From assembly GCF_000334895.1 (NCBI RefSeq), contig NZ_BAFM01000015.1, positions 1-64,000 on the forward strand: 64,000 nucleotides of DNA, given 5' to 3'. This document shows, in pieces, positions 44,560 to 56,609 of the stretch. The notes below the pieces were generated by a model, which had not been told where the DNA came from, ran no database searches, and saw only the letters and a program-made list of their open reading frames with translations. Within the stretch, counting starts at the first letter, position 1; every line of letters starts with the position of its first letter. The stretch is from Halococcus agarilyticus (GTDB lineage Archaea > Halobacteriota > Halobacteria > Halobacteriales > Halococcaceae). A program made the position numbers and the translations under genes.

Positions 44560-45057
44560 CTACTGCTCGGTCTCCTCGGTACCCGTGTTCCAGACGGCCT
44601 GGTTCTGCAGCGCGGCGGCGGTGTTCTGGATCGACCGCATCGTGGCCGCGGTCGCCATCACCGAGTCCATCACCGCCTGCTGGCTCGCGCCGTCCGGGTA
44701 GATCCGGTGTTCGAGCAAGATCGAGTGGACCGCGGGGAACTCACACGGGTCGCCGTCCGCGTCGAGGAAGGTGTAAAACCCCGGTGCGGTCGCGAGGATG
44801 GGGCCCAGTCGGGTGAGTAGTTTCTGGCGGTCCTCGTCGTCCTCGACCAGCGCCGCGACGCGCTCGGTGTCGAACGTACACTCCCCGACGACTCGCAGCG
44901 GGCCCCACGTCTCCTCCTTGATGACGTGGAGCGGGAGTCGCGAGAGCTGGAGTCGGAGGTTGAACTCGGTCCCGTCTGTGGTCTCGTGCTCGATCCCCTG
45001 AACGACCTTCTCGTCGAGCCACGCCTCCGCCTGCTCGCGACTGATGTGGTCGACCAT
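44560..45057 (-). CDS. DUF2299-type protein
   Basis: The 165-residue protein begins ISREQAEAWLDEKVVQGIEH and has EFNLRLQLSRLPLHVIKEE and APGFYTFLDADGDPC, which fit DUF2299, a family with a secretion-chaperone-like fold and unknown role. A C-terminal helical extension (residues 130-165) is Gln/Ala-rich. Divergent from the DUF255 gene with 100 bp between starts. Confidence 0.7.
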   Translation of the reverse strand: MVDHISREQAEAWLDEKVVQGIEHETTDGTEFNLRLQLSRLPLHVIKEETWGPLRVVGECTFDTERVAALVEDDEDRQKLLTRLGPILATAPGFYTFLDADGDPCEFPAVHSILLEHRIYPDGASQQAVMDSVMATAATMRSIQNTAAALQNQAVWNTGTEETEQ

Positions 45058-45157
45058 CCTCGATCCTCGGGCCGCACCCGCAAAGAAGCTGCTGCCGGCT
45101 GACGCCGCCGCGAACGACGAGCCAGCGTTTACCCGTGACGGGAGCGTACACCGAGCC

Positions 45158-47323
45158 ATGAGCGCCATCGAACGAAATCGGCTCGACGAAGAAGGGAGTC
45201 CGTATCTCCGCCAGCACGCCGACAACCCCGTGAACTGGCAGCCGTGGGACGACGACGCGCTGGCGGCAGCCCGTGAGCGCGACGTCCCGATCTTCCTCTC
45301 GATCGGCTACTCGGCGTGTCACTGGTGTCACGTCATGGAAGAGGAGAGCTTCGAGGACGAAGCGGTGGCCGAGCGGCTCAACGACGAGTTCGTCCCGATC
45401 AAGGTCGACCGCGAGGAGCGCCCGGACCTCGACCGGCTCTATCAGACGATCTGCGGGATGGTCTCGGGCCAGGGTGGGTGGCCGCTGTCGGTGTGGCTCA
45501 CGCCCGACGGCCGCCCGTTCTACGTCGGGACGTACTTCCCCCGCGAGGCGAAGCGGGGCCAGCCTGGCTTTCTCGACCTGCTCGACTCCATCGCGGAGTC
45601 GTGGGAGAACGACCGCGAGGACATCGAGGGTCGCGCCGACCAGTGGGCGGGCGCGATGGCCGGCGAGTTGGAGGCGACGCCCGAGCAGCCAGGCGACCCA
45701 CCAGGAACCGACTTGCTCGAAACCGCCGCCCAGCAGGCGGTCGAGAGCGCCGATCGCGAGTATGGGGGGTTCGGTCGCGGCCAGAAGTTCCCGCAGACGG
45801 GTCGGCTCCATCTTCTCATGCGCGCCGCCGAGCGAACCGGGAGAGAGGTCTTCGACGAGGTCGCCCGCGAGGCGCTCGACGCGATGGCCGATGGTGGGCT
45901 CCGGGATCACGTCGGCGGCGGCTTCCACCGCTACACCACCGACCGCGAGTGGACGGTGCCCCACTTCGAGAAGATGCTCTACGACAACGCCGAGCTCACG
46001 CGGGCGTATCTCGCGGGCTATCGCCGGACGGGCGCTGAGCGCTACGCCGAGGTCGCGCGCGAAACGTTAGGATTCGTCGAACGCGAACTCCGTCACCCCG
46101 ACGGCGGCTTCTTCAGCACGCTCGACGCTCAGAGCGAGGACGAGTCCGGCAAACGCGAGGAAGGGGCGTTCTACGTCTGGACGCCCGATGAGGTTCACAA
46201 CGCGGTCGGCGACGAGTTCGCTGCCGATCTGTTCTGCGAGCGCTACGGCGTCACCGAGGCGGGGAACTTCGAGGACGGGAGGACGGTGCTGACGGAGAGC
46301 GCCGAAATCGAAGGCTTGGCCGACGAGCACGACACCACCGTCGAAGAGGTCGAGGCGGAGCTCGAACGCGCCCGCGAGGCGGTCTTCGCGGCACGATCCG
46401 AGCGCGCACGCCCGGCACGCGACGAGAAAATTCTGGCTGGATGGAACGGCCTAACGATTTCGGCGTTCGCCGAAGCCGGGCTCACGCTCGATGCGCGCTT
46501 CGCCGACACCGCCGTCGCGGCGCTCGACTTCGTTCGCGAACACCTATGGGACGACGAGGAAAAGCGGCTTTCCCGGCGATACAAGGACGGAGAGGTGAAG
46601 ATCGAGGGCTACCTCGAAGACTACGCGTTCCTTGCGCGCGGCGCGCTCAACTGCTACGAGGCCACCGGCGATGTCGACCACCTCGCGTTCGCGCTCGATC
46701 TCGCGCGCGAGATCGAGGCGGAGTTCTGGGACTCAGAGGAGGAGACGCTCTATTTCACCCCACAGACAGGGGAGACGCTCGTCGCGCGACCCCAGGAGCT
46801 CGACGACCAGTCGACGCCCTCCAGCACCGGGGTGGCGGTCGACGTGCTGCTCGCGCTGGATCACTTCGCCGATGACGATCGCTTCGAGTCGATCGCCACG
46901 GCGACTCTCGAAACCCACGCCGAAACCGTCGAATCGAGCCCGCTCCGGCGTGCGTCGCTCGCGCTCGCGGCCGATCGCCACGCTACCGGGTCCCTCGAAT
47001 GCACAGTCGTAGCCGACGCGCTCCCCGACGCGTGGCGCGAGCGGATCGGTCGAAGCTATCTGCCCCGCCGGCTGCTCGCGCGGCGACCACCTTCCGACGA
47101 GGAACTCGCCACGTGGTGTGACCGGCTCGGACTCGACGAGCCGCCGGCGATCTGGGCCGATCGAGACCAGCGCGATGGTGAGCCCACGGCGTACGTCTGT
47201 CGATCGTTCACCTGCTCGCCGCCGCAGACTGACATCGAGGACGCGCTGTCGTGGGTGGAGCGACTCGCGTCCGACACGGATGCGGATCCAGAATCGACTC
47301 CAGCGGACGACCGTTCGCGTTAG
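45158..47323 (+). CDS. DUF255 thioredoxin-domain protein with (alpha/alpha)6 barrel
   Basis: The 721-residue protein starts NRLDEEGSPYLRQHADNPV and has the thioredoxin-like active site SIGYSACHWCHVMEEES with a CxxC pair, GGWPLSVWLTPDGRPFY, then a long helical barrel with GGGFHRYTTDREWTVPHFEKML (quoted in part). Eukaryotic and bacterial relatives (spermatogenesis-associated protein 20, YyaL) lack a settled function. The ATG at 45158 opens the conserved N-terminus. Its stop overlaps the convergent thioredoxin stop by 4 bp. Confidence 0.9.
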   Translation: MSAIERNRLDEEGSPYLRQHADNPVNWQPWDDDALAAARERDVPIFLSIGYSACHWCHVMEEESFEDEAVAERLNDEFVPIKVDREERPDLDRLYQTICGMVSGQGGWPLSVWLTPDGRPFYVGTYFPREAKRGQPGFLDLLDSIAESWENDREDIEGRADQWAGAMAGELEATPEQPGDPPGTDLLETAAQQAVESADREYGGFGRGQKFPQTGRLHLLMRAAERTGREVFDEVAREALDAMADGGLRDHVGGGFHRYTTDREWTVPHFEKMLYDNAELTRAYLAGYRRTGAERYAEVARETLGFVERELRHPDGGFFSTLDAQSEDESGKREEGAFYVWTPDEVHNAVGDEFAADLFCERYGVTEAGNFEDGRTVLTESAEIEGLADEHDTTVEEVEAELERAREAVFAARSERARPARDEKILAGWNGLTISAFAEAGLTLDARFADTAVAALDFVREHLWDDEEKRLSRRYKDGEVKIEGYLEDYAFLARGALNCYEATGDVDHLAFALDLAREIEAEFWDSEEETLYFTPQTGETLVARPQELDDQSTPSSTGVAVDVLLALDHFADDDRFESIATATLETHAETVESSPLRRASLALAADRHATGSLECTVVADALPDAWRERIGRSYLPRRLLARRPPSDEELATWCDRLGLDEPPAIWADRDQRDGEPTAYVCRSFTCSPPQTDIEDALSWVERLASDTDADPESTPADDRSR

Positions 47324-47697
47324 TTCGTCGGCTCGGGCGCGTCGAGCTGCTCGGCGAGGTGGACGATCGGGGGTTCGGGTTCGTCCTCGACGAACCGTGC
47401 GACCTCCTCGCCGTCGCGCTCGATGACGATCGTGGGGATGTATTCGATGTCGTATTCGGCGACCAGTTCGCCTTGCTTGTCCTGATCGAGCGCGTACTCC
47501 TCGATCCGTTCCTCGGGGACGTCGGCTTCGTCGAGCGCCGCCGCGAAGTCCGGGAGAACGGCCCGACAGTCTTTGCACCAGTCACCGGCCCAGACTCGGA
47601 CGGTGAGTTCGTCTGCGTGTTCGGCGACGGCGTCGATCGCATCCTCGTAGCCCGCGGGGTTCCAGACCGGGTTCGGCGACATCGTTTCGAGGCTCAT
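47320..47697 (-). CDS. thioredoxin-family protein
   Basis: The 125-residue protein has VRVWAGDWCKDCRAVLPDF with active-site CKDC, a cis-proline segment YDIEYIPTIVIERDG, and is convergent with the DUF255 thioredoxin protein, sharing 4 bp at their ends. It probably reduces or exchanges protein disulfides. Start ATG 47697 is used; the ATG at 47682 would also give a full fold. Confidence 0.85.
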   Translation of the reverse strand: MSLETMSPNPVWNPAGYEDAIDAVAEHADELTVRVWAGDWCKDCRAVLPDFAAALDEADVPEERIEEYALDQDKQGELVAEYDIEYIPTIVIERDGEEVARFVEDEPEPPIVHLAEQLDAPEPTN

Positions 47698-47821: not shown

Positions 47822-48796
47822 ATGGACGACAGCATCCTCGACGCCATCGGATCGCCCCTCGTGCAGGTCGGTTCGCCAGAGGGCGCGACCGTGGCCGCGA
47901 AGATCGAGTCGAAGAACCCCGGCGGGTCGGCGAAGGACCGCCCCGCGAAGGCGATGGTCGAGGCCGCCGAACGCGAGGGCATGCTGAAGCCGGGCGATCG
48001 CATCGTCGAGCCGACGAGCGGCAACACCGGCATCGGTCTCGCGGTGGTCGCGGCGGCGAAGGGGTACGATCTCACGGTCGTGATGCCCGCCTCGAAATCG
48101 GCAGAACGCCGCCAGGTCATGGCGGCGTACGGTGCGAACCTCGAACTCGTCGACGGCGAGATCGAGCGCGCGAAGGAGCGGGCCGACGACCTCGAAAGCG
48201 AAGGGATGGTCCAACTCCGCCAGTTCGAAAACCCGGCGAACGTCCGCATGCACTACGAGACCACCGCCACGGAGATTCTTGATCAGGTCGGCGATCGAAC
48301 CGTCGATGCGCTCGTCGCCGCGGTCGGTACCGGTGGGACGCTCACCGGGATCGCCGGCCGGCTCGGCGAGGAGTACCCCGAGATGAACGTCGTCGCGGTC
48401 GAACCCGAGACGAACGCCGTGCTCTCGACCGGCGAGGCGGGCGCGGACGAGTTCGAGGGGATGGGCCCCGGGTTCGTGAGCGACATCCTCGATATCGATT
48501 CCATCGACACCGTCGAGACCGTCGGGATCGAGGCCGCGGAAGCCGAGTGTCGCCGGCTCGCGCGCGAGGAAGGAATCATGGTCGGCCAGTCGAGCGGCGC
48601 GGCGAACCTCGCCGCCCGTCGGGTCGCCAAGCGACTCGCCGAACCCGAACTCGACTGTCCGCCCGCCCCGACGGAGCTCCGGGCCGACGGAAGCGGCGAG
48701 GCAGTCGGTACCGAGTACGACGACTGCCCGCTGGTCGTCACCGTCTTCCCCGACAGCGGCGAGCGCTACCTCTCGACCGGGATGTTCGACGGGTGA
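47822..48796 (+). CDS. cysK: cysteine synthase / O-acetylserine sulfhydrylase-type PLP enzyme
   Basis: The 324-residue fold-type II PLP enzyme has KNPGGSAKDRPAKAMVEAAE with the Schiff-base lysine, PTSGNTGIGLA, GTGGTLTGIAGRL and VGQSSGAANLA. It makes cysteine from O-acetylserine (or phosphoserine) and sulfide. A 22-residue insertion near the C-terminus is present. It lies close to the sulfur-transfer cluster starting at 49.6 kb and could supply cysteine to both that and gshA. Confidence 0.88.
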   Translation: MDDSILDAIGSPLVQVGSPEGATVAAKIESKNPGGSAKDRPAKAMVEAAEREGMLKPGDRIVEPTSGNTGIGLAVVAAAKGYDLTVVMPASKSAERRQVMAAYGANLELVDGEIERAKERADDLESEGMVQLRQFENPANVRMHYETTATEILDQVGDRTVDALVAAVGTGGTLTGIAGRLGEEYPEMNVVAVEPETNAVLSTGEAGADEFEGMGPGFVSDILDIDSIDTVETVGIEAAEAECRRLAREEGIMVGQSSGAANLAARRVAKRLAEPELDCPPAPTELRADGSGEAVGTEYDDCPLVVTVFPDSGERYLSTGMFDG

Positions 48797-49563: not shown

Positions 49564-50715
49564 TCAGGCCGCGCAGTTGTTCGCGCCCGTTTCGAGCATC
49601 GTCGCCGCACGCGCACTCTCGACGCTCTCGACACCACGATTGATCGCGATCACCGTCTCGTAGTTGTCGGGCTTCTCGGGGACGTTCTCGACCATCTGTT
49701 CGACGAACGCCGCCCGGTCGAGGTCGACGAGGTCGAGTCGATCCCGCACCTCGTCGAGGGAACGTCCGACGAGTTTCCCTGGGGTTCCGTTCTCGTAGGT
49801 ACCGTCGCTGTTCACGGTGACGTGGCCCGGTAGGACGGTGAGTTCTGTGGGGAGTTCGAGCAGCGTGTCGTGAAGCGTCTCGTACTGCATCTCCGCACCG
49901 TCCTCGGCCCCCTCGTCGCCGAACTCGAGCTCCGTGCGACCGATCGAATCGAGAAACAGGCTATCCCCGGTGAGCACGGCGTCGTCGCCGACACGATACG
50001 CGACCATCTCGGTGGTGTGACCGGGCGCGCCGAGGGTCTCGATCCCAGTATCGCCGACCGTGATCGTCGCACCGTCGGCCAGCGGTTCGAACTCGTAATC
50101 GAGGTCGCGCTCGGCCGCGCGTTCGCCGAGACGATAGGGGACACCGAGTCGTGTCGCGAGCGTCCGCCCGCCGGAGAGATGGTCGGCGTGGACGTGGGTA
50201 TCGAGAACGTGGGTGATCGCCATCCCGTGCTCGGCGGCGGTGGTCACGTACTGGTCGGTGTGTCGCGTGGGGTCGACGACGACCGCCTCGCCCGCGCGTT
50301 TCGAGCCGACGAGATAGGAGAGACAGCCCTTCGCCCGACGCTGGAACTGCACGATCACGAGATCGTCGCTCGTGGTGTCCACGCGGACGGTCTCGTACAG
50401 CGAGTTCCACTCGCGCATTCCCCCTGTCACGACCGCAACGTCGTCGAACTCGTTGGCGTCGAGTTCGGCGGCAAGGATCGTCGACGTCGCACCCTTCCCG
50501 CAGATCGTGACGATCCGCTTACCGTCCGCCAACGACGCGATCGTCTCGCGCTGGTCCACCCCCAGCGTCTCCGTCGGCCCGAACGGGACGTTCACCGCAC
50601 CCGGCACACGCCACGACTCGTAGCTGTCCGCCGGACGCGTGTCGATGAGTGTGAAATCGTCCACACCTGCATCCTGTGTGTCAGCGAGTTCTCTGGCAGT
50701 GATCGTCTCGAACAT
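49564..50715 (-). CDS. rhodanese-metallo-beta-lactamase fusion, persulfide-dioxygenase-like (1)
   Basis: The 383-residue protein has an N-terminal rhodanese domain (LIDTRPADSYESWRVPGAVN, active-site TICGKGATS near residue 72) and a C-terminal ETHE1/glyoxalase II-like MBL domain with THVHADHLSGG, APGHTTEM, LTGDSLF and LPGHV. ETHE1-type enzymes oxidise persulfide sulfur to sulfite. The domain order is the reverse of most described persulfide-dioxygenase-rhodanese fusions. It ends GANNCAA, a cysteine close to the C-terminus shared with its paralogue at 53.1 kb. A TATA-like gtttatct lies about 32 bp upstream of ATG 50715. Confidence 0.87.
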   Translation of the reverse strand: MFETITARELADTQDAGVDDFTLIDTRPADSYESWRVPGAVNVPFGPTETLGVDQRETIASLADGKRIVTICGKGATSTILAAELDANEFDDVAVVTGGMREWNSLYETVRVDTTSDDLVIVQFQRRAKGCLSYLVGSKRAGEAVVVDPTRHTDQYVTTAAEHGMAITHVLDTHVHADHLSGGRTLATRLGVPYRLGERAAERDLDYEFEPLADGATITVGDTGIETLGAPGHTTEMVAYRVGDDAVLTGDSLFLDSIGRTELEFGDEGAEDGAEMQYETLHDTLLELPTELTVLPGHVTVNSDGTYENGTPGKLVGRSLDEVRDRLDLVDLDRAAFVEQMVENVPEKPDNYETVIAINRGVESVESARAATMLETGANNCAA

Positions 50716-50960
50716 CGTCCTACTTGTCTGTACGGTATTGGGACAGATAAACATTCTTGCACACAGCCGCTGGACCCACGAATCATCCGACAGACGGCAC
50801 AGGCTGCGATTCGGGTTCGGTGTTCGCTACGTAACGTTGTTTTCCGGTGGTCTCTCGGGGGCGTATCGGCCCGATCCGGCTCGGAGCGATCGTGCCCATC
50901 GTGCTGAGTGGAATCAACTGGACGACCCGAGCATGGCGGCGGGTGAACGCCGACGGGTGG

Positions 50961-51521
50961 CTACTCGATCGTCGCGACCAGCAGAAACGTCTCCGGACGA
51001 CTGATCTCGTGCTCGATCGCGAACCCGTGGTCACGGAGCGAATCCGCGGCTGCACCGACGGTGTACCGTTCGTCGAGCGGTGGGCCGTTCTCGCCGGTGC
51101 CTGTGGCAGTCCAATCGACGATGGCGAGTCGTCCTGTGGGCCCGAGCACCCGGTGAATTGCCGCGAACGCGTCGTCGCTCGCGAACTCGTGATAGGTCAT
51201 CGTCGAGAACGCGGCGTCGAGACTCCCGTTCTCGAACGGGAGCTCCTCGATGTCCGTCGTCACGAGTTCGACGTTCGCCGGCACGCCCTTCTCGCGGTAG
51301 TACTCGTGCATCGCCTCCTGGACATCGACCGCGTAGACCTCGCTTGCATGCGGCGCGACGTCGTCTGTGTAAAACCCCGTCCCGCTGCCGAGGTCGGCGA
51401 CAGCATGCTCCGGCGACGGCGAAAGCGCCCACAGCAGCTCCTCGGCCGAGAGAAACCGGTAGCGCCACGCCGTCTCCTCCAGCTTGTCGGCTCGTGCGGC
51501 GTCGAAGGTGTGGTACCCCAT
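50961..51521 (-). CDS. class I SAM-dependent methyltransferase in the sulfur cluster
   Basis: The 186-residue protein has VADLGSGTGFYTDDVA, EVYAVDVQEAM, TDIEELPFENGSLDAAF and RVLGPTGRLAIVDW, the Methyltransf_11 pattern. Its ATG overlaps the DUF302 stop by one base. Its place in the sulfur gene set suggests a thiol or chalcogenide substrate, but this is only inference. The 245 bp between it and the next gene downstream contain that gene's own promoter. Confidence 0.83.
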   Translation of the reverse strand: MGYHTFDAARADKLEETAWRYRFLSAEELLWALSPSPEHAVADLGSGTGFYTDDVAPHASEVYAVDVQEAMHEYYREKGVPANVELVTTDIEELPFENGSLDAAFSTMTYHEFASDDAFAAIHRVLGPTGRLAIVDWTATGTGENGPPLDERYTVGAAADSLRDHGFAIEHEISRPETFLLVATIE

Positions 51522-51961
51522 CAGAGCGCCTCGAACGCCTCGTCGGCGAGCTCGCCGGTGTCCTCGATGATGTCGGCCATCGCGTCGTCGTCCGGTGCTA
51601 CTCCGACGAGTCGGGCGATCCGCATGATCGAAACGTGGTAGACGGTCTGCACGCCGGGTTCCTCCTCCCAGACGACGACGTTGCAGGGGAAGAGGCCACC
51701 CATTCGCTTATCGGTGGCATCGAGCGCGCGGTCGGCGATCGCGGGGTTGCACGCACCCAGCACGTAGTAGGGATCACGGTCGGCGTCGACCTTCTCGTTG
51801 AGGAGATCCGACGGCGAGAACTCGACGGGGATGCCGAACCCAGCGTCGGTGAACACCGCTCTGACGTGCTCGATCGCCTCCTCGTGGCTCATCTCTAGGG
51901 TCGTTCGTTTCACACCGATATCGTCTTCGTCCAGCTGGGTCGGGTCGATGGGGAGCGTCAT
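51521..51961 (-). CDS. DUF302 protein
   Basis: The 146-residue protein has EEAIEHVRAVFTDAGFGIPV, LGACNPAIADRALD, LFPCNVVVWEE and EDTGELADEAFE, all DUF302 features. DUF302 proteins often sit beside YeeE/YedE, rhodanese and MBL genes in sulfur loci, though their biochemistry is unclear. Two cysteines (in GACNP and FPCNV) are conserved in the family. It is co-translated with the methyltransferase. Confidence 0.88.
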   Translation of the reverse strand: MTLPIDPTQLDEDDIGVKRTTLEMSHEEAIEHVRAVFTDAGFGIPVEFSPSDLLNEKVDADRDPYYVLGACNPAIADRALDATDKRMGGLFPCNVVVWEEEPGVQTVYHVSIMRIARLVGVAPDDDAMADIIEDTGELADEAFEAL

Positions 51962-52033
51962 CGTGTAGAGTATTGTGTCTGTCGTGAAAATCGTTTTCGG
52001 TTCGTGAGATCCGGTGTGTAGGGGCGGACCGAC

Positions 52034-52606
52034 TCAGACGAGAAGTTGGATGTCGGCGTCGGTCATACGCTGGAAGGCGCTCGCCGCGCCAACACCCGTC
52101 TCGATGCCGTCGTAGAAGTCGGCTTCATCGTAGTCCAGCAGATCGATCGTCATCTGGCAGGCCTGCAACTCGACGCCGCTGTCGAGGGCAGTCTCGACGA
52201 GTTCCTCGACGGTCGCGACGTCGTTGTCGGCGATGCGTCGCTCCATCATCTTCGAAATCGCACGATCCATGCCGGGCAGCGCACCGATCACGTTCGGGAT
52301 CGGCATGTTCGGATTGCCGACCGAGCTCAACTGAAGCTCCCCGGAATGCTCCTCGTGGAGGATTTCGAGGCCCCAGAACGTGTGAAAAACCGTCACGTCC
52401 CAGCCGAAGGCCGCGGCCGTCGAGGCGAGGATCAACGGTGGGTACGCCATGTCGAGAGTGCCTTTCGTGGCGATGATGACCATCTGCTGGTCGTTCTCGT
52501 CGGCGCGCATCTCGGCAAGTTCGGCTTCGAGCTCCTCGATGCGAGCTTCGAGGCTTGCAACGTCCTCGATCGACTCGCCAGCGGTGGATCGGGTCTCCGT
52601 GCTCAT
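52034..52606 (-). CDS. DsrE/DsrF/DrsH-like protein
   Basis: The 190-residue protein has an N-terminal coiled coil (residues 15-38, EDVASLEARIEELEAELAEM), then a DsrE fold with VIIATKGTLDMAYPPLILAS and a cysteine in LQACQMTIDLL near residue 150. DsrE-like proteins pass sulfane sulfur between TusA-type carriers and other enzymes. It sits 58 bp downstream of the tusA-like gene on the same strand. Confidence 0.88.
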   Translation of the reverse strand: MSTETRSTAGESIEDVASLEARIEELEAELAEMRADENDQQMVIIATKGTLDMAYPPLILASTAAAFGWDVTVFHTFWGLEILHEEHSGELQLSSVGNPNMPIPNVIGALPGMDRAISKMMERRIADNDVATVEELVETALDSGVELQACQMTIDLLDYDEADFYDGIETGVGAASAFQRMTDADIQLLV

Positions 52607-52664
52607 CGTCGCCTCTCGGCCGATCGATTGGCCGACGCGCGTGCCCCGATCTCGTCGGTGGTCA

Positions 52665-52910
52665 TCATGCGGTCTTCCGGACGTAGTGTTTGTACACGTC
52701 CCCGTCGTCGGTCTGATCGACCAGTTCGACGCCCGTGGTCGAGCCGGCCCATCCCTTGATGTCGCTCGTGCTCCCAGCATCGGTCGCGAGCACTTCGAGC
52801 ACCTCCTCGCTCTCCAACTCGTCGACCGCCTGCTTGGTCTCGATGACCGGCATGGGGCAGTTCTCACCTTTGACGTCGAGCGTCTCGGCAGTATCGTGTT
52901 CGTCGCTCAT
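52665..52910 (-). CDS. TusA-family sulfur carrier
   Basis: The 81-residue protein has LDVKGENCPMPVIETKQAV, the CPxP sulfur-carrier motif, and the alpha/beta end WAGSTTGVELVDQ. TusA proteins receive sulfane sulfur on this cysteine and deliver it to partners. It heads the minus-strand half of the sulfur cluster; its promoter region contains an inverted repeat at 52933-52951. The start at 52910 (MSDEHDTAETL) is preferred over 52940. Confidence 0.92.
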   Translation of the reverse strand: MSDEHDTAETLDVKGENCPMPVIETKQAVDELESEEVLEVLATDAGSTSDIKGWAGSTTGVELVDQTDDGDVYKHYVRKTA

Positions 52911-52932
52911 GTTTTGTCTTGCCTCTATCGAA

Positions 52933-52951
52933 CAATACAACCCGGGTATTG
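52933..52951. promoter_or_regulatory. inverted repeat in the tusA-like promoter
   Basis: caatac (52933-52938) and gtattg (52946-52951) are perfect arms around a 7-nt spacer, 22-41 bp before the TusA ATG, so the repeat covers the expected TATA/BRE position. It could be a repressor site. Confidence 0.45.
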
Positions 52952-53056
52952 CAAAAGTCTTGTGAATCTACCGAACACCCCTCTCTCGAAGACCTCCGGA
53001 TACTGCATCGAAGCGTCTTTGGAGTCCGTACGACCCATCTTCGACCAGCCTATATT

Positions 53057-53093
53057 GTATAGAATTCACTATTCTATACGAAGGCTTATTTGG
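53057..53093 (+). promoter_or_regulatory. 9-bp inverted repeat abutting a TATA box, second rhodanese-MBL operon
   Basis: gtatagaat (53057-53065) and attctatac (53071-53079) form a perfect inverted repeat with 5-nt spacer, directly followed by the TATA-like gcttattt (53084-53091) about 28 bp before ATG 53117. The surrounding 52.93-53.10 kb is unusually AT-rich. This is a strong operator candidate for the sulfur gene set. Confidence 0.6.
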
Positions 53094-53116
53094 GCCGAAC
53101 GGGTAGTTGGGGTACG

Positions 53117-54304
53117 ATGAGTGACGAAGCGTTTCCCGACCCGGCTGTCGATGTCGAATCGATCGAGCCGAACGAACTGAAAGAGCGCATCGACGACAGC
53201 GAGGGCGTGTTCCTGCTCGACACGTGTTCGAGTGAGGCGTTCGAGGAGTGGCACATCGACGAACCGAACGTTACCGTCCGGAACGTGCCGTACTTCGAAT
53301 TCCTGCTCGGCGATGTCGACGAGGAGGTCTTTGATGCGATCCCTGACGACCGGGACGTGACGGTTCTCTGCGCGAAGGGTGATTCGAGCGAGTACGTCGC
53401 CGGTCTGCTGGCCGAACGCGGCTACGAGGTGCGTCATCTCGCACGCGGCATGAACGGCTGGGCGGAGCTCTACGAATCCCATGAACTCGCCATCGATGCC
53501 GACGCCACAATCGTCCAGTACCAGCGCGCCTCCAGCGGCTGCCTCTCGTATCTCGTCGTTAGCGGCGACGAGGCCGCGGTCGTCGATCCACTCCGACCGT
53601 TCGCCGACACCTATCACCAGGACGCGCGCACGCTGGGTGCGGAGATCACGGCCGCGCTCGACACCCACATCCACGCCGACCACATCAGTGGAGCCCGACG
53701 CGTCGCCGCAGGAACCGACGCGGAGGCGTTCCTTCCTGCATCCGCCGCCGAGCGTGGTGTCGACGACGACACTGCCTATTCGACGATCGAGGACGGCGAG
53801 ACGATCGCCGTCGGCGAGACCGATATCGAGGCGTTTCACACGCCCGGGCACACGTCGGGAATGACCGCCTACCGGGTCGGGAACGCCCTGTTCGCCGGCG
53901 ACGGTCTGTTCATCGAAAGCGTCGCTCGTCCCGATCTCGAAGCGGGAGCCGAAGGCACAGCCGACGCCGCAGAACAGCTCCACGAGACGTTGCACGAGCG
54001 TGTGCTGGAGCTTCCCGACGAGACCATCGTCGCTCCAGGCCACTTCAGCGGGAACGCCGAGGCCGACGACGGCACGTACACGGCTCGACTCGGCGACCTC
54101 GAATCCCGGATGGACGCACTCGGAATGGATCGTGCGGCGTTCGTCGATCTCGTCCAGTCGGATATGCCGCCACGACCGAGCAACTACGAGGCAATCGTCG
54201 CGACCAACCTCGGCGAACGCGAGCCGACCGACGAGGAGGCGTTCGCGCTCGAACTGGGCCCGAACAACTGTGCGGCGAGCCAGGACGTGCTGACGAGCGA
54301 CTGA
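53117..54304 (+). CDS. rhodanese-metallo-beta-lactamase fusion, persulfide-dioxygenase-like (2)
   Basis: The 395-residue paralogue has an N-terminal rhodanese domain (FLLDTCSSEAFEEWH, active-site VLCAKGDSSEYVA) and a C-terminal MBL domain with THIHADHISGARRVA, TPGHTSGMTAYR and FAGDGLF. An MBL ligand position after APGHF is visible. It ends GPNNCAASQDVLTSD, sharing the NNCAA motif with the 49.6 kb gene but with eight extra residues. The first domain has an additional Cys in place of the usual Arg (DTCSS). It heads the plus-strand operon. Confidence 0.86.
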   Translation: MSDEAFPDPAVDVESIEPNELKERIDDSEGVFLLDTCSSEAFEEWHIDEPNVTVRNVPYFEFLLGDVDEEVFDAIPDDRDVTVLCAKGDSSEYVAGLLAERGYEVRHLARGMNGWAELYESHELAIDADATIVQYQRASSGCLSYLVVSGDEAAVVDPLRPFADTYHQDARTLGAEITAALDTHIHADHISGARRVAAGTDAEAFLPASAAERGVDDDTAYSTIEDGETIAVGETDIEAFHTPGHTSGMTAYRVGNALFAGDGLFIESVARPDLEAGAEGTADAAEQLHETLHERVLELPDETIVAPGHFSGNAEADDGTYTARLGDLESRMDALGMDRAAFVDLVQSDMPPRPSNYEAIVATNLGEREPTDEEAFALELGPNNCAASQDVLTSD

Positions 54305-54307
54305 TCG

Positions 54308-54820
54308 ATGATCGAACAGTTCGACGTCCTGACGGTCATCGGACAGGCGTCGCTCGCGGGGCTGTTCCCCCGCGGGATCGGCCAGTACGCCATCGGCGGC
54401 GTCCTCATCGGGCTTGGGGTTTCGATCATCTACCTCGGAACAGCGATCACGCCGGGTGCGAGCACGTTCTTCGAGTCGACGCTGTCGTACGTCTCGACGA
54501 TCCCGCGATTCAACCGGGCGAAATATCTCGCCACACGTGACTGGCGGCTCGTTTTCACGCTGAGCATGGTCGCCGGCGCGGCCGTCTACGCCCTCCTCTT
54601 CGGACAGGGTGGCTGGACGACCGACGTCCAGCCGTGGCGACTGCTCGGCGGTGGCGTCCTCGTCGGTGTCGGGACGCGGATCGGGAAGGGCTGTACCTCC
54701 GGCCACGGGATCAACGGGCTGGCGTCGCTGTCGCGGACCTCGTTCGCGAACGTCGCGACGTTCATGGCAGTCGCGATTGGGGCCGCGCTCTCGATGCAGG
54801 CGATCGGGGTGACGCCATGA
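54308..54820 (+). CDS. YeeE/YedE family transporter, first half
   Basis: The 170-residue protein has about four membrane segments, including IGGVLIGLGVSIIYLG, and a conserved GKGCTSGHGINGL loop near residue 128, which in bacterial TsuA-type YeeE holds the cysteine that transiently binds thiosulfate. Bacterial YeeE is about twice this size. Start is 4 nt after the MBL gene's stop. The next gene provides the second half. Confidence 0.88.
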   Translation: MIEQFDVLTVIGQASLAGLFPRGIGQYAIGGVLIGLGVSIIYLGTAITPGASTFFESTLSYVSTIPRFNRAKYLATRDWRLVFTLSMVAGAAVYALLFGQGGWTTDVQPWRLLGGGVLVGVGTRIGKGCTSGHGINGLASLSRTSFANVATFMAVAIGAALSMQAIGVTP

Positions 54821-55284
54821 GCGCGAGCGATACCCGTCACCCGCTGTTCGTGCCGCTGATCGCCGTCGGCGGATCGCTGTTCGGGTTCGGCCTCGCCTAC
54901 AGCGGGATGGCGAGACCCGAGATCGTCCTCGATTTCCTCCAGTTGGAGGATCTCGGACTCCTCTTCGTGATGGGCGGAGCGGCGGCCGTCACTGGAACCG
55001 TCATCACGCTTGCGATGCGCCACCTCGACCGTGCACCGCTCACCGGCGATCCCTACGGCAAACGCGAGCGATCCTTCGACCGCAGCGTGCTCCTCGGCGG
55101 AGCGGTCTTCGGCGTCGGCTGGGGGATCTCGGGGCTCTGTCCCGGCTCGGCGTACGCCAGTCTCGGCATCGGGAACTACCCGATCCTACTCGGGATTGCC
55201 GGGATGTTCCTCGGTGCGTACGCTCAGGGCTACTGGCGCGCGTATCGACAGGAAACCGATAGAACGGTCACACCGAGCGACTGA
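54817..55284 (+). CDS. YeeE/YedE family transporter, second half
   Basis: The 155-residue protein has four membrane segments and the matching loop GWGISGLCPGSAYASLG, with its own conserved Cys. Its ATG overlaps the first half's stop (ATGA), so the two are translated together and probably form one transporter for thiosulfate or another sulfur compound. It lies directly upstream of a 29-codon ORF and DUF2270. Confidence 0.88.
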   Translation: MSASDTRHPLFVPLIAVGGSLFGFGLAYSGMARPEIVLDFLQLEDLGLLFVMGGAAAVTGTVITLAMRHLDRAPLTGDPYGKRERSFDRSVLLGGAVFGVGWGISGLCPGSAYASLGIGNYPILLGIAGMFLGAYAQGYWRAYRQETDRTVTPSD

Positions 55285-55306
55285 TCGTACCCGATTCGAC
55301 TCCCAG

Positions 55307-55396
55307 ATGATGCGAAACACCGAACACGAGCACGATATCGAATACGAGCACGACACCGACCGCGAACAGCTATCGTGGATAGAGGAGGACTCGTGA
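55307..55396 (+). CDS. 29-codon ORF before DUF2270, possible leader peptide
   Basis: MMRNTEHEHDIEYEHDTDRE begins an ORF that ends overlapping the DUF2270 GTG by 4 bases (GTGA). The repeated EHEHD and EYEHD segments supply three histidines and several acids, which could bind metal. The gaggagg Shine-Dalgarno sequence for the next gene is inside it. Coupling is likely; whether the peptide itself matters is not known. Confidence 0.4.
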   Translation: MMRNTEHEHDIEYEHDTDREQLSWIEEDS

Positions 55397-56103
55397 GCGA
55401 CGACACACCCTTCGATCCAACCGGAGAGGTCGAGCGCCACATCGGTCGCGGGATGTTCGAGGAGGGGATGGGTCCCGGCTCGTCGATGGCCCATCTCTAC
55501 CGCGGCGAGGTCCACCGGATGAAGTTCTGGCGCGAGCGCCTCGATCGAACGACCAACTGGGCCATCACGATCATGGCAGCGATCCTGACGTGGGCGTTCA
55601 CGGGCAACAATCCCCACTACATCGTGCTGATCGGGCTGGCGATGATCACGGTCTTCCTCGTGATCGAGGCCCGTCGATACCGTGGCTACGACCTCTGGCG
55701 GTCGCGCGTGCGACTGATGCAGGAGAACGTCTTCGCGAACGCGCTCGATGCGTCCAAAGATATCAGTGACCCCCACTGGCGACGCGAGCTGAGCGAGGAC
55801 TACCGCCAGCCGAAGATCAAGATCAGCTTCGAGGAGGCGCTCGCCCATCGCCTGCGCCGCGTATATCTGCCACTCATGGCCGTGCTCCTCGTCGCCTGGT
55901 TTATCCGGATCACTGCCTTCATGCAGGCAACCGGGTGGCCGGCGAGTGCCGCGATCGGTGCCATTCCCGGGGTCGTCGTAACCGGACTCGTCGCCGCGTT
56001 CTTCGTCGCTGCAACCGTAGTCGCCTGCCGACCGCGGACGTGGAAGGCGAACGGGGAGCTCCGACTGACCGACGTCGATGTCTGGGGCGACACCGAACAG
56101 TGA
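55393..56103 (+). CDS. DUF2270 membrane protein
   Basis: The 236-residue protein has an acidic N-terminus, the segment AHLYRGEVHRMKFWRERLDR, two membrane segments near residues 55-90 and two near 165-215. This is DUF2270, a haloarchaeal membrane family of unknown function. GTG 55393 is preferred because a gaggagg Shine-Dalgarno motif lies 4-5 bp upstream; ATG 55375 is an alternative adding six residues. Confidence 0.8.
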   Translation: MSDDTPFDPTGEVERHIGRGMFEEGMGPGSSMAHLYRGEVHRMKFWRERLDRTTNWAITIMAAILTWAFTGNNPHYIVLIGLAMITVFLVIEARRYRGYDLWRSRVRLMQENVFANALDASKDISDPHWRRELSEDYRQPKIKISFEEALAHRLRRVYLPLMAVLLVAWFIRITAFMQATGWPASAAIGAIPGVVVTGLVAAFFVAATVVACRPRTWKANGELRLTDVDVWGDTEQ

Positions 56104-56204
56104 GCCGCTCCCTCGACGACAGGAGCTCGACCGTGATGGTCGTGTACAGTCGTGCGGAGCATGCACAACGTCTTTATTCGCGCCAGCCCTACGGGGCGTA
56201 ACCA

Positions 56205-56609
56205 ATGCCCGACTCGATGGCGGAGTATCTTCGTGCGGACATGGAGTGTGAGGGGCTCCTCGAATGTTTCCACGGTCTGACCGATCTCGACCGGGACTGC
56301 TTCGAAGTCGTCGTCAGTCATGACAACGCCCTGACTGTCGATGAGATCGCCGAGGAAGTCGACCGGGAACGCTCGACGGTGTATCGCTCGCTCCAGCGAC
56401 TGCTCCAGGCGGGGTTCGTCCAGAAGGAGCAGGTCAACTACGAACAGGGTGGCTACTATCACGTCTTCCGGCCGACCGATCCCGATGTCGTCGCTGACGA
56501 GATGCAACGCATGTTGAACGACTGGTACGCGAAGATGGGGCAGCTCATCGGGGAGTTCCGGACGAAGTACGAGCCGTCCGATCAGCCCACGGCGGCCGTC
56601 GAGGGGTGA
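56205..56609 (+). CDS. helix-turn-helix regulator with three N-terminal cysteines
   Basis: The 134-residue protein has a winged-helix core: ALTVDEIAEEVDRERSTVYR then LQRLLQAGFVQKEQV. The N-terminal 32 residues contain C15, C21 and C32, which could form a redox- or persulfide-sensitive site. It ends the plus-strand sulfur gene set, 101 bp after DUF2270, with its own TATA-like ctttattcgc about 30 bp before the ATG. Likely the local regulator, by position. Confidence 0.78.
   Translation: MPDSMAEYLRADMECEGLLECFHGLTDLDRDCFEVVVSHDNALTVDEIAEEVDRERSTVYRSLQRLLQAGFVQKEQVNYEQGGYYHVFRPTDPDVVADEMQRMLNDWYAKMGQLIGEFRTKYEPSDQPTAAVEG

Follow-up and report, generated by a model that had tools for sequence, protein, structure and literature searches.

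We analysed a stretch of 64,000 nucleotides from the haloarchaeon Halococcus agarilyticus (contig NZ_BAFM01000015.1, positions 1 to 64,000; hereafter the window) and focused on a cluster of ten genes at 49564-56609 that encodes sulfur-handling proteins and a winged-helix regulator. The core of the cluster, in which dsrE2 and tusA diverge from a gene for a rhodanese-metallo-beta-lactamase (MBL) fusion (gene B) and two YeeE halves, is conserved class-wide in Halobacteria, and its two divergent promoters share an operator, GTATTG-N11-CAATAC. The genes under this operator probably form a persulfide-responsive regulon for the import, relay and oxidation of sulfane sulfur (persulfide, polysulfide or thiosulfate), and the neighbouring TrmB-family regulator is, judging from the sequence, the likely reader of the operator. 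The analysis thereby puts names to the conserved operator and to a candidate sensor for a whole archaeal class.

Bacterial regulators that sense persulfide and control reactive sulfur have been studied in depth; our literature search found no archaeal counterpart. The same search, with most subscription journals outside its reach, returned no description of a haloarchaeal operator, regulon or two-cysteine sensor, and all three appear to be undescribed. We consider the chances about even that they represent the first archaeal family of sulfane-sulfur sensors, a TrmB-type protein with an N-terminal two-cysteine switch that governs a regulon in nearly all Halobacteria through GTATTG-N11-CAATAC.

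Layout of the cluster

The gene list, gene order and two divergent gene sets reported in a preliminary description of this DNA were confirmed by coordinates and Pfam, with all ten genes present and passing the curated Pfam cut-offs. From the centre outward, the minus strand encodes TusA, DsrE2, DUF302, a methyltransferase and rhodanese-MBL fusion A, and the plus strand encodes rhodanese-MBL fusion B, two overlapping YeeE halves, DUF2270 and the TrmB-type regulator. The two sets flank an AT-rich region between tusA and B. Start codons were corrected for A (50715), B (53117), TusA (52910) and DsrE2 (52606). The nearest named relative is Halococcus morrhuae. The features are as follows.

49564..50715, minus: rhodanese-MBL fusion A, a rhodanese followed by an ETHE1-type MBL domain (Pfam Rhodanese 55 bits, Lactamase_B 44.7 bits)
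50735..50757, minus: operator-like site in the A promoter, with its right half, CAATAC, immediately 3' of the TATA box (score 9/12; 2 mismatches to RTATTG-N11-CAATAY)
50961..51521, minus: class I S-adenosylmethionine-dependent methyltransferase (Pfam Methyltransf_11 68.6 bits)
51521..51961, minus: DUF302 protein with conserved C71 and C93 (Pfam DUF302 59 bits)
51970..51992, minus: operator-like site 5' of DUF302 (score 9/12)
52034..52606, minus: DsrE2-type sulfur carrier (Pfam DrsE_2 162.7 bits, cut-off 25)
52665..52910, minus: TusA sulfurtransferase with CPxP motif (Pfam TusA 75.4 bits, cut-off 28.6)
52916..52938, minus: tusA operator GTATTG-N11-CAATAC, 11/12 match (one mismatch), 3' of the TATA box and over the expected transcription start
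52951..52965, minus: TATA/B-factor element (BRE)-like sequence in the promoter of tusA-dsrE2, ACAAGACTTTT (columns -27 to -14 are conserved when the DNA upstream of tusA is aligned)
53052..53079, plus: operator of B, abutting the BRE; ATATTG-N11 variant plus perfect palindrome GTATAGAAT-N5-ATTCTATAC
53078..53090, plus: BRE and TATA box of the B promoter, ACGAAGGCTTATT (columns 24-35 conserved across 61 loci)
53117..54304, plus: rhodanese-MBL fusion B (Pfam Rhodanese and Lactamase_B; conserved residues; AlphaFold2 (AF2) model)
54308..54820, plus: YeeE half 1, PmpA/PmpB-like, single conserved Cys129, 170 aa (Pfam Sulf_transp 44.9 bits)
54817..55284, plus: YeeE half 2, PmpA/PmpB-like, single conserved Cys108, 155 aa (Pfam DUF6691 72.4 bits, Sulf_transp 29.7 bits)
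55393..56103, plus: DUF2270 membrane protein (Pfam 242.5 bits)
56205..56609, plus: two-cysteine TrmB/arCOG02242-type winged-helix regulator (Pfam TrmB 60.5 bits)

Conservation across Halobacteria

We collected the surroundings of the best matches to B, which gave 60 loci from 57 genomes and 36 haloarchaeal genera; the loci were thus picked by similarity to B and are mutually related. In this set, tusA diverges from B in 53/60 loci, DsrE2 follows TusA in 51/60, and both YeeE halves lie downstream of B in 56/60. Such a survey of co-occurrence had been proposed in the preliminary description, with a lack of co-conservation as the refuting outcome. The core is retained in 51-56 of the 60 loci from the 36 genera, so that this refutation failed, and the sulfur-transfer reading is well supported. 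The TrmB-type regulator is found within ~10 kb in 44/60 loci. The more peripheral genes, DUF2270 (21/60), the methyltransferase (16/60) and DUF302 (14/60), recur nearby, and the related loci also contain genes for TauE, thioredoxin and PiT-family transporters, with a TauE-family exporter in many of them.

When the sample was widened to 292 genomes, 284 contained the regulator and 258 contained DsrE2. All eight genomes that lack the regulator also lack DsrE2 (hypergeometric 1.5e-8, a value that is approximate because the genomes are related). These eight genomes, one of them Halococcus-like (G235), span seven genera, and strong matches to B are missing from all of them, the best E being about 1e-104 or weaker.

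In Halobacterium salinarum NRC-1 (L095), the cluster lies on the megaplasmid pNRC200, at 340000-357000, accompanied by genes for TauE, thioredoxin, a PHO4/PiT-family transporter and cytochrome bd oxidase. A plasmid location was seen in further haloarchaea as well.

A shared operator with a fixed spacing

Alignment of the DNA upstream of B from 61 loci revealed GTATTG-N11-(A)A(A/T)TAC, followed directly by TATGCAAA-nn-CTTAT, the BRE and TATA box. This variant overlaps the BRE, and the aligned element is present in 61/61 loci. Upstream of tusA, RTATTG-N11-CAATAC scores at least 9/12 in 54/54 loci, at a position 3' of the TATA box where transcription is expected to start. The spacing of the half-sites is identical at the two promoters. 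With at most one mismatch allowed, the strict palindrome occurs at 98 sites in the 60 loci when the spacer is 11, whereas each of the other spacers from 5 to 19 gave 8 sites or fewer and none of the 59 rearranged versions of the half-site exceeded 4.

A score of at least 9/12 was also reached by 6/7 promoters of A, 10/11 of DUF302 and 28/45 of the regulator gene, as against about 3-3.6% of shuffles, in which the base composition was kept and the dinucleotide frequencies were not. At the regulator gene, the site is a variant that lies nearer to the BRE, and the fit at A and DUF302 is weak within the window. As expected for second genes of operons, DsrE2 and YeeE half 1 showed no operator enrichment upstream.

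The two inverted repeats that the preliminary description had noticed in the AT-rich promoter region are a genus-level form of the class-wide operator. A perfect 9-5-9 palindrome there, at 53057-53079, is unique in the window at up to 3 mismatches and absent from 100 shuffles; it is a version of the B operator that also occurs in several close relatives (L039, L040, L044). The H. agarilyticus genome holds one other weak match to GTATAGAAT-N5-ATTCTATAC (L002, G000:C37:1763-1783), which sits between glycosyltransferase-like and polysaccharide-flippase-like genes and is probably due to chance. With almost no other genomic sites, this palindrome is a lineage variant, and we rejected it as the regulon motif. 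A 44-column matrix of the B promoter likewise retrieved almost no further sites; the shorter palindrome shared with tusA did find them.

The operator marks sulfur and thiol genes genome-wide

Across 78 genomes, the exact palindrome occurs at 43 sites, compared with 1 for the reversed control. Among 30 operator sites whose surroundings were fetched, 24 adjoin sulfur or thiol genes, and 12 of the 30 are tusA promoters. The rest of the 24 adjoin a TusA-like gene, rhodanese-MBL or methyltransferase genes, DUF302, DsrE, thioredoxin reductase, pyridine-nucleotide disulfide reductase and VKOR genes (the neighbours of the L117, L124 and L128 sites were assigned by inspection). In addition, Pfam-identified thioredoxin genes near the clusters repeatedly carry the operator. 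In the H. agarilyticus genome, allowing two mismatches, we counted 61 operator sites versus 26 controls. Genomes without the regulator had 10 sites versus 4 for the control, and matched genomes bearing it had 29 versus 5.

Because the operator lies at their promoters, A and also DUF302 and, in some genomes, the methyltransferase look like members of the regulon. DUF2270, which like these two other families was left unexplained in the preliminary description, is a recurrent neighbour of the cluster with an operator in few loci. In two genomes, an exact copy of the operator (position 1501 of L101 and of L112) has a DUF1684 gene as its neighbour, and in L101 this gene diverges from one for a pyridine-nucleotide disulfide reductase, an arrangement that suggests a function of DUF1684 in thiol or sulfur metabolism. 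Genes for VKOR-family membrane proteins lie directly 3' of, or next to, exact operators in L121, L124 and L128, hinting that the regulon is connected with disulfide formation. The operator makes a role in sulfur or thiol metabolism testable for DUF302 and, as far as some genomes are concerned, also for DUF1684, DUF2270 and the methyltransferase.

The candidate regulator

The regulator is a single-domain protein of the arCOG02242/TrmB type. Its best Pfam family is TrmB (60.5 bits, versus 24.5 for the ArsR HTH_5 family), and the NCBIfam Sta1 model scored 69 bits, below its cut-off of 80. The closest solved structure, both by sequence and by fold, is 3R0A from Methanosarcina, which has been cited as arCOG02242 (PMC9426492); AbfR2 is also near. 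The AF2 model, with a long C-terminal helix at 93-122, likewise matched 3R0A best.

Two cysteines near the N-terminus, C15 and C21, are invariant in 45/45 sequences. The preliminary description had regarded regulation by a protein with three cysteines as possible; the common operator gives direct sequence support to shared regulation, but C32 is conserved in 26/45 sequences and was rejected as a sensor residue. In 3R0A, the cysteine aligned with C21 joins intersubunit disulfides, and in OxsR of Haloferax the cysteine equivalent to C21 senses hypochlorite (PMC9426492). The confidence of the AF2 model is low around Cys15 (residues 14-16 below 50), and we therefore make no claim on geometry. Haloferax encodes an OxsR paralogue, HVO_1360, which is 28% identical to OxsR, has cysteines 15 and 21 and is of unknown function (PMC9426492); it is probably the orthologue of the H. 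agarilyticus regulator. Haloferax volcanii, with HVO_1360, and H. salinarum NRC-1, with its pNRC200 genes, are genetically tractable hosts with a likely orthologue or the cluster, making the idea directly testable.

Residues and structures of the sulfur-handling proteins

The enzymes and carriers of the cluster are of already known kinds. In B, the rhodanese cysteine C85, together with C142 and C385, and the MBL metal ligands H184, H186, D188, H189, H245, D262 and H309 are invariant in 60/60 sequences; in A, C72, C131 and C381 and the same set of His and Asp ligands are conserved in 7/7. Both fusions thus contain HxHxDH plus the downstream His and Asp of the ETHE1-type dioxygenase metal site. 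In a Foldseek search with the AF2 model of B (mean predicted local distance difference test score 85.5), the top 22 matches were ETHE1, persulfide dioxygenase (PDO), PDO-rhodanese or related MBL structures, including Beggiatoa PDO, human ETHE1, CstB and BpPRF, and the first glyoxalase II appeared at rank 23. A sequence search of solved structures also placed PDO-type proteins nearest to both A and B. From these similarities we infer that A and B are persulfide dioxygenases, which would convert persulfide to sulfite in an O2-dependent manner. The two proteins carry a PF00581 rhodanese domain, not DUF442 as in Blh, and scored 48.5 and 45.5 bits against the Blh equivalog NF040641 (cut-off 625). 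At their ends, the two fusions share a strictly conserved NNCAA motif (residues 379-383 of A and 383-387 of B), the invariant cysteine of which lies outside the rhodanese and MBL domains.

The carriers are equally well conserved at their cysteines: C18 of the TusA CPxP motif in 54/54 sequences and C150 of DsrE2 in 52/52. Both score below the NCBIfam equivalog cut-offs (43.9 versus 78 bits for TusA; 158.9 versus 210 for SulfCarrDsrE2). DUF302 has C71 and C93 invariant in 11/11. The YeeE halves, encoded by overlapping genes, have one conserved cysteine each (C129, 53/53; C108, 53/53), and the pair fits the definition of PmpA/PmpB as adjacent short YeeE proteins with a single conserved cysteine each (PMC11582611). 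Archaeal YeeE proteins have been named in Sulfolobales and Thermoplasmatota, not in Halobacteria (PMC11582611). The pair would transport a sulfane-sulfur compound, with both the substrate and the direction of transport as predictions.

Relation to known systems

The preliminary description could not name the combination of genes. Our literature search returned no description of a haloarchaeal version, but its functional counterparts are recognisable in the bacterial BigR, CstR and FisR operons, although the haloarchaeal regulator is unrelated to BigR and CstR. The bigR operon of Xylella and Agrobacterium (BigR, Blh and a TauE-related exporter; PMC5823870) shares the fusion of a sulfurtransferase domain followed by an ETHE1-type dioxygenase, an exporter of the TauE family, which many of the haloarchaeal loci encode, and a winged-helix regulator with two cysteines, which is sulfur-responsive there and predicted to be so in haloarchaea. 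The differences are that BigR is an ArsR-family protein with cysteines 42 and 108, whereas the haloarchaeal regulator belongs to the TrmB family with cysteines 15 and 21 and so lacks the one early and one late cysteine of the BigR/SqrR ArsR-type sensors; that Blh has DUF442 instead of a PF00581 rhodanese; and that TusA-DsrE2 is core to the haloarchaeal set. The BigR-controlled yeeE-yedE-pdo2 operon of Acinetobacter and the pmp operon of Serratia (PMC7315123) similarly combine two short YeeE-type genes with a persulfide dioxygenase and a thiol regulator, but have an ArsR-type regulator and another operator, and lack the rhodanese-first pair and the divergent tusA-dsrE2. As proposed here, the haloarchaeal system works like these operons but is a member of neither type.

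OxsR (HVO_2970, H. volcanii; PMC9426492) is likewise a single-domain arCOG02242 TrmB-family protein with a conserved cysteine near the N-terminal helix, and its sites may lie upstream or downstream of the BRE/TATA, as does the haloarchaeal operator. In contrast to the H. agarilyticus regulator, OxsR has a single conserved cysteine and a CG-rich motif, and responds to hypochlorite. The PDO-rhodanese fusions BpPRF and CstB, the closest solved structures, join the same two activities with the dioxygenase first, whereas A and B have the rhodanese first. The earlier designation of A and B as reversed is therefore apt relative to BpPRF and CstB, but not relative to Blh, which also has its sulfurtransferase domain first. 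Finally, the dsrE3A-dsrE2B-tusA cluster of Metallosphaera (PMC4175335) also encodes archaeal DsrE and TusA carriers together; it is linked to an Hdr-like complex and lipoamide dehydrogenase, and the haloarchaeal one to dioxygenase fusions and a split YeeE.

Proposed mechanism and alternatives

We propose that the two YeeE halves import a sulfane-sulfur compound, that TusA, DsrE2 and the rhodanese domains would carry the sulfur as protein persulfide, and that the ETHE1-type domains of A and B would oxidise low-molecular-weight persulfide with O2 to sulfite. In many relatives, the sulfite could then be exported by the TauE-family protein, which is not encoded at the H. agarilyticus locus. Cys15 and Cys21 would serve the regulator as sulfur-sensing residues, with a di- or polysulfide bridge from one subunit of the dimer to the other as the likeliest chemistry, and the protein would read the operator at tusA-dsrE2 and B and, more weakly, at A, DUF302 and its own promoter. 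We assign it this role because of its linkage to the cluster, its co-loss with DsrE2 and its two invariant cysteines. It probably acts mainly as a repressor released by sulfane sulfur, since the tusA site covers the expected transcription start; the B site, overlapping the BRE, would also suit repression, although activation at B is possible as well because OxsR activates from upstream sites. With the operator placed differently relative to BRE/TATA in the two divergent operons, relay (tusA-dsrE2) and import-oxidation (B-YeeE) might switch in opposite directions.

Several points weigh against this proposal. The link between regulator and operator is circumstantial, and the co-loss of regulator and DsrE2 is a confounded test, as the target genes have disappeared from the same genomes. 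Since operator variants are conserved at B and at the regulator's own promoter, a single reader is an assumption, and the differing positions of the operator make repression at all promoters uncertain. The operator was recognised in the same loci in which it was later counted, and the 78-genome scan, which shares some of these loci, is only partly independent. In the H. agarilyticus genome, the two TauE genes lie outside the locus, and a search for sulfide:quinone oxidoreductase returned distant flavoproteins, none of them close.

The absence of a close sulfide:quinone oxidoreductase would also fit an assimilatory role, in which YeeE imports thiosulfate, TusA and DsrE2 feed the synthesis of cysteine, tRNA, molybdopterin or iron-sulfur clusters, and A and B balance the sulfur. 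E. coli YeeE/TsuA, with a TusA-like partner, takes up thiosulfate for cysteine synthesis, and this precedent, a weak NCBIfam match to the TusA-like YeeD and a cysteine-synthase-type PALP gene ~1-2 kb beyond the cluster all speak for assimilation. We nevertheless regard it as unlikely. Among the 60 loci, the cysteine-synthase gene adjoins the cluster only in the nearest relative, and DsrE2 is conserved, not TusA alone. Two PDO-type enzymes with invariant ligands, the TauE exporters of relatives, and the thioredoxin, thioredoxin reductase, VKOR and DUF302 genes of the regulon point instead to the management of sulfane sulfur.

Those thioredoxin, thioredoxin reductase and VKOR genes would also suit a general thiol-oxidation regulon, in which the regulator would detect hypochlorite or disulfide stress in the manner of OxsR, with the sulfur genes as one branch of a redox response. 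The regulator shares the TrmB fold family of OxsR, which forms an intersubunit disulfide through Cys24 and has thiol-relay targets (PMC9426492). Set against this are the one cysteine and CG-rich motif of OxsR (PMC9426492), compared with two invariant cysteines and an AT-rich operator here; the commonest and best operators lie at tusA and B, and losses of the regulator are confined to genomes that lack DsrE2, which leaves this explanation improbable. There is a similarly small chance that another DNA-binding protein reads the operator and that the neighbouring helix-turn-helix (HTH) gene regulates something else, as the different HTH genes in some related loci and the variant, not strictly palindromic, site at the regulator's own promoter might indicate. 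The regulator, though, is the HTH gene conserved with the cluster (44/60 loci), its absence coincides with that of DsrE2 in 8/8 genomes, and genomes without it show few operator sites over the control (10 versus 4, compared with 29 versus 5 in matched genomes).

Genes beside the cluster

The cysteine-synthase-type PALP enzyme is encoded at 47822-48796 on the plus strand, ~1-2 kb outside the cluster, and adjoins a thioredoxin-like gene at 47320-47697 on the minus strand. A 759 aa protein, encoded on this same side of the cluster at 45044-47323 on the plus strand, resembles DUF255/YyaL (thioredoxin-related) by eye. The cysteine synthase, thioredoxin-like and DUF255 genes were rejected as cluster members, their linkage being confined to the closest relative (L044) among the 60 loci.

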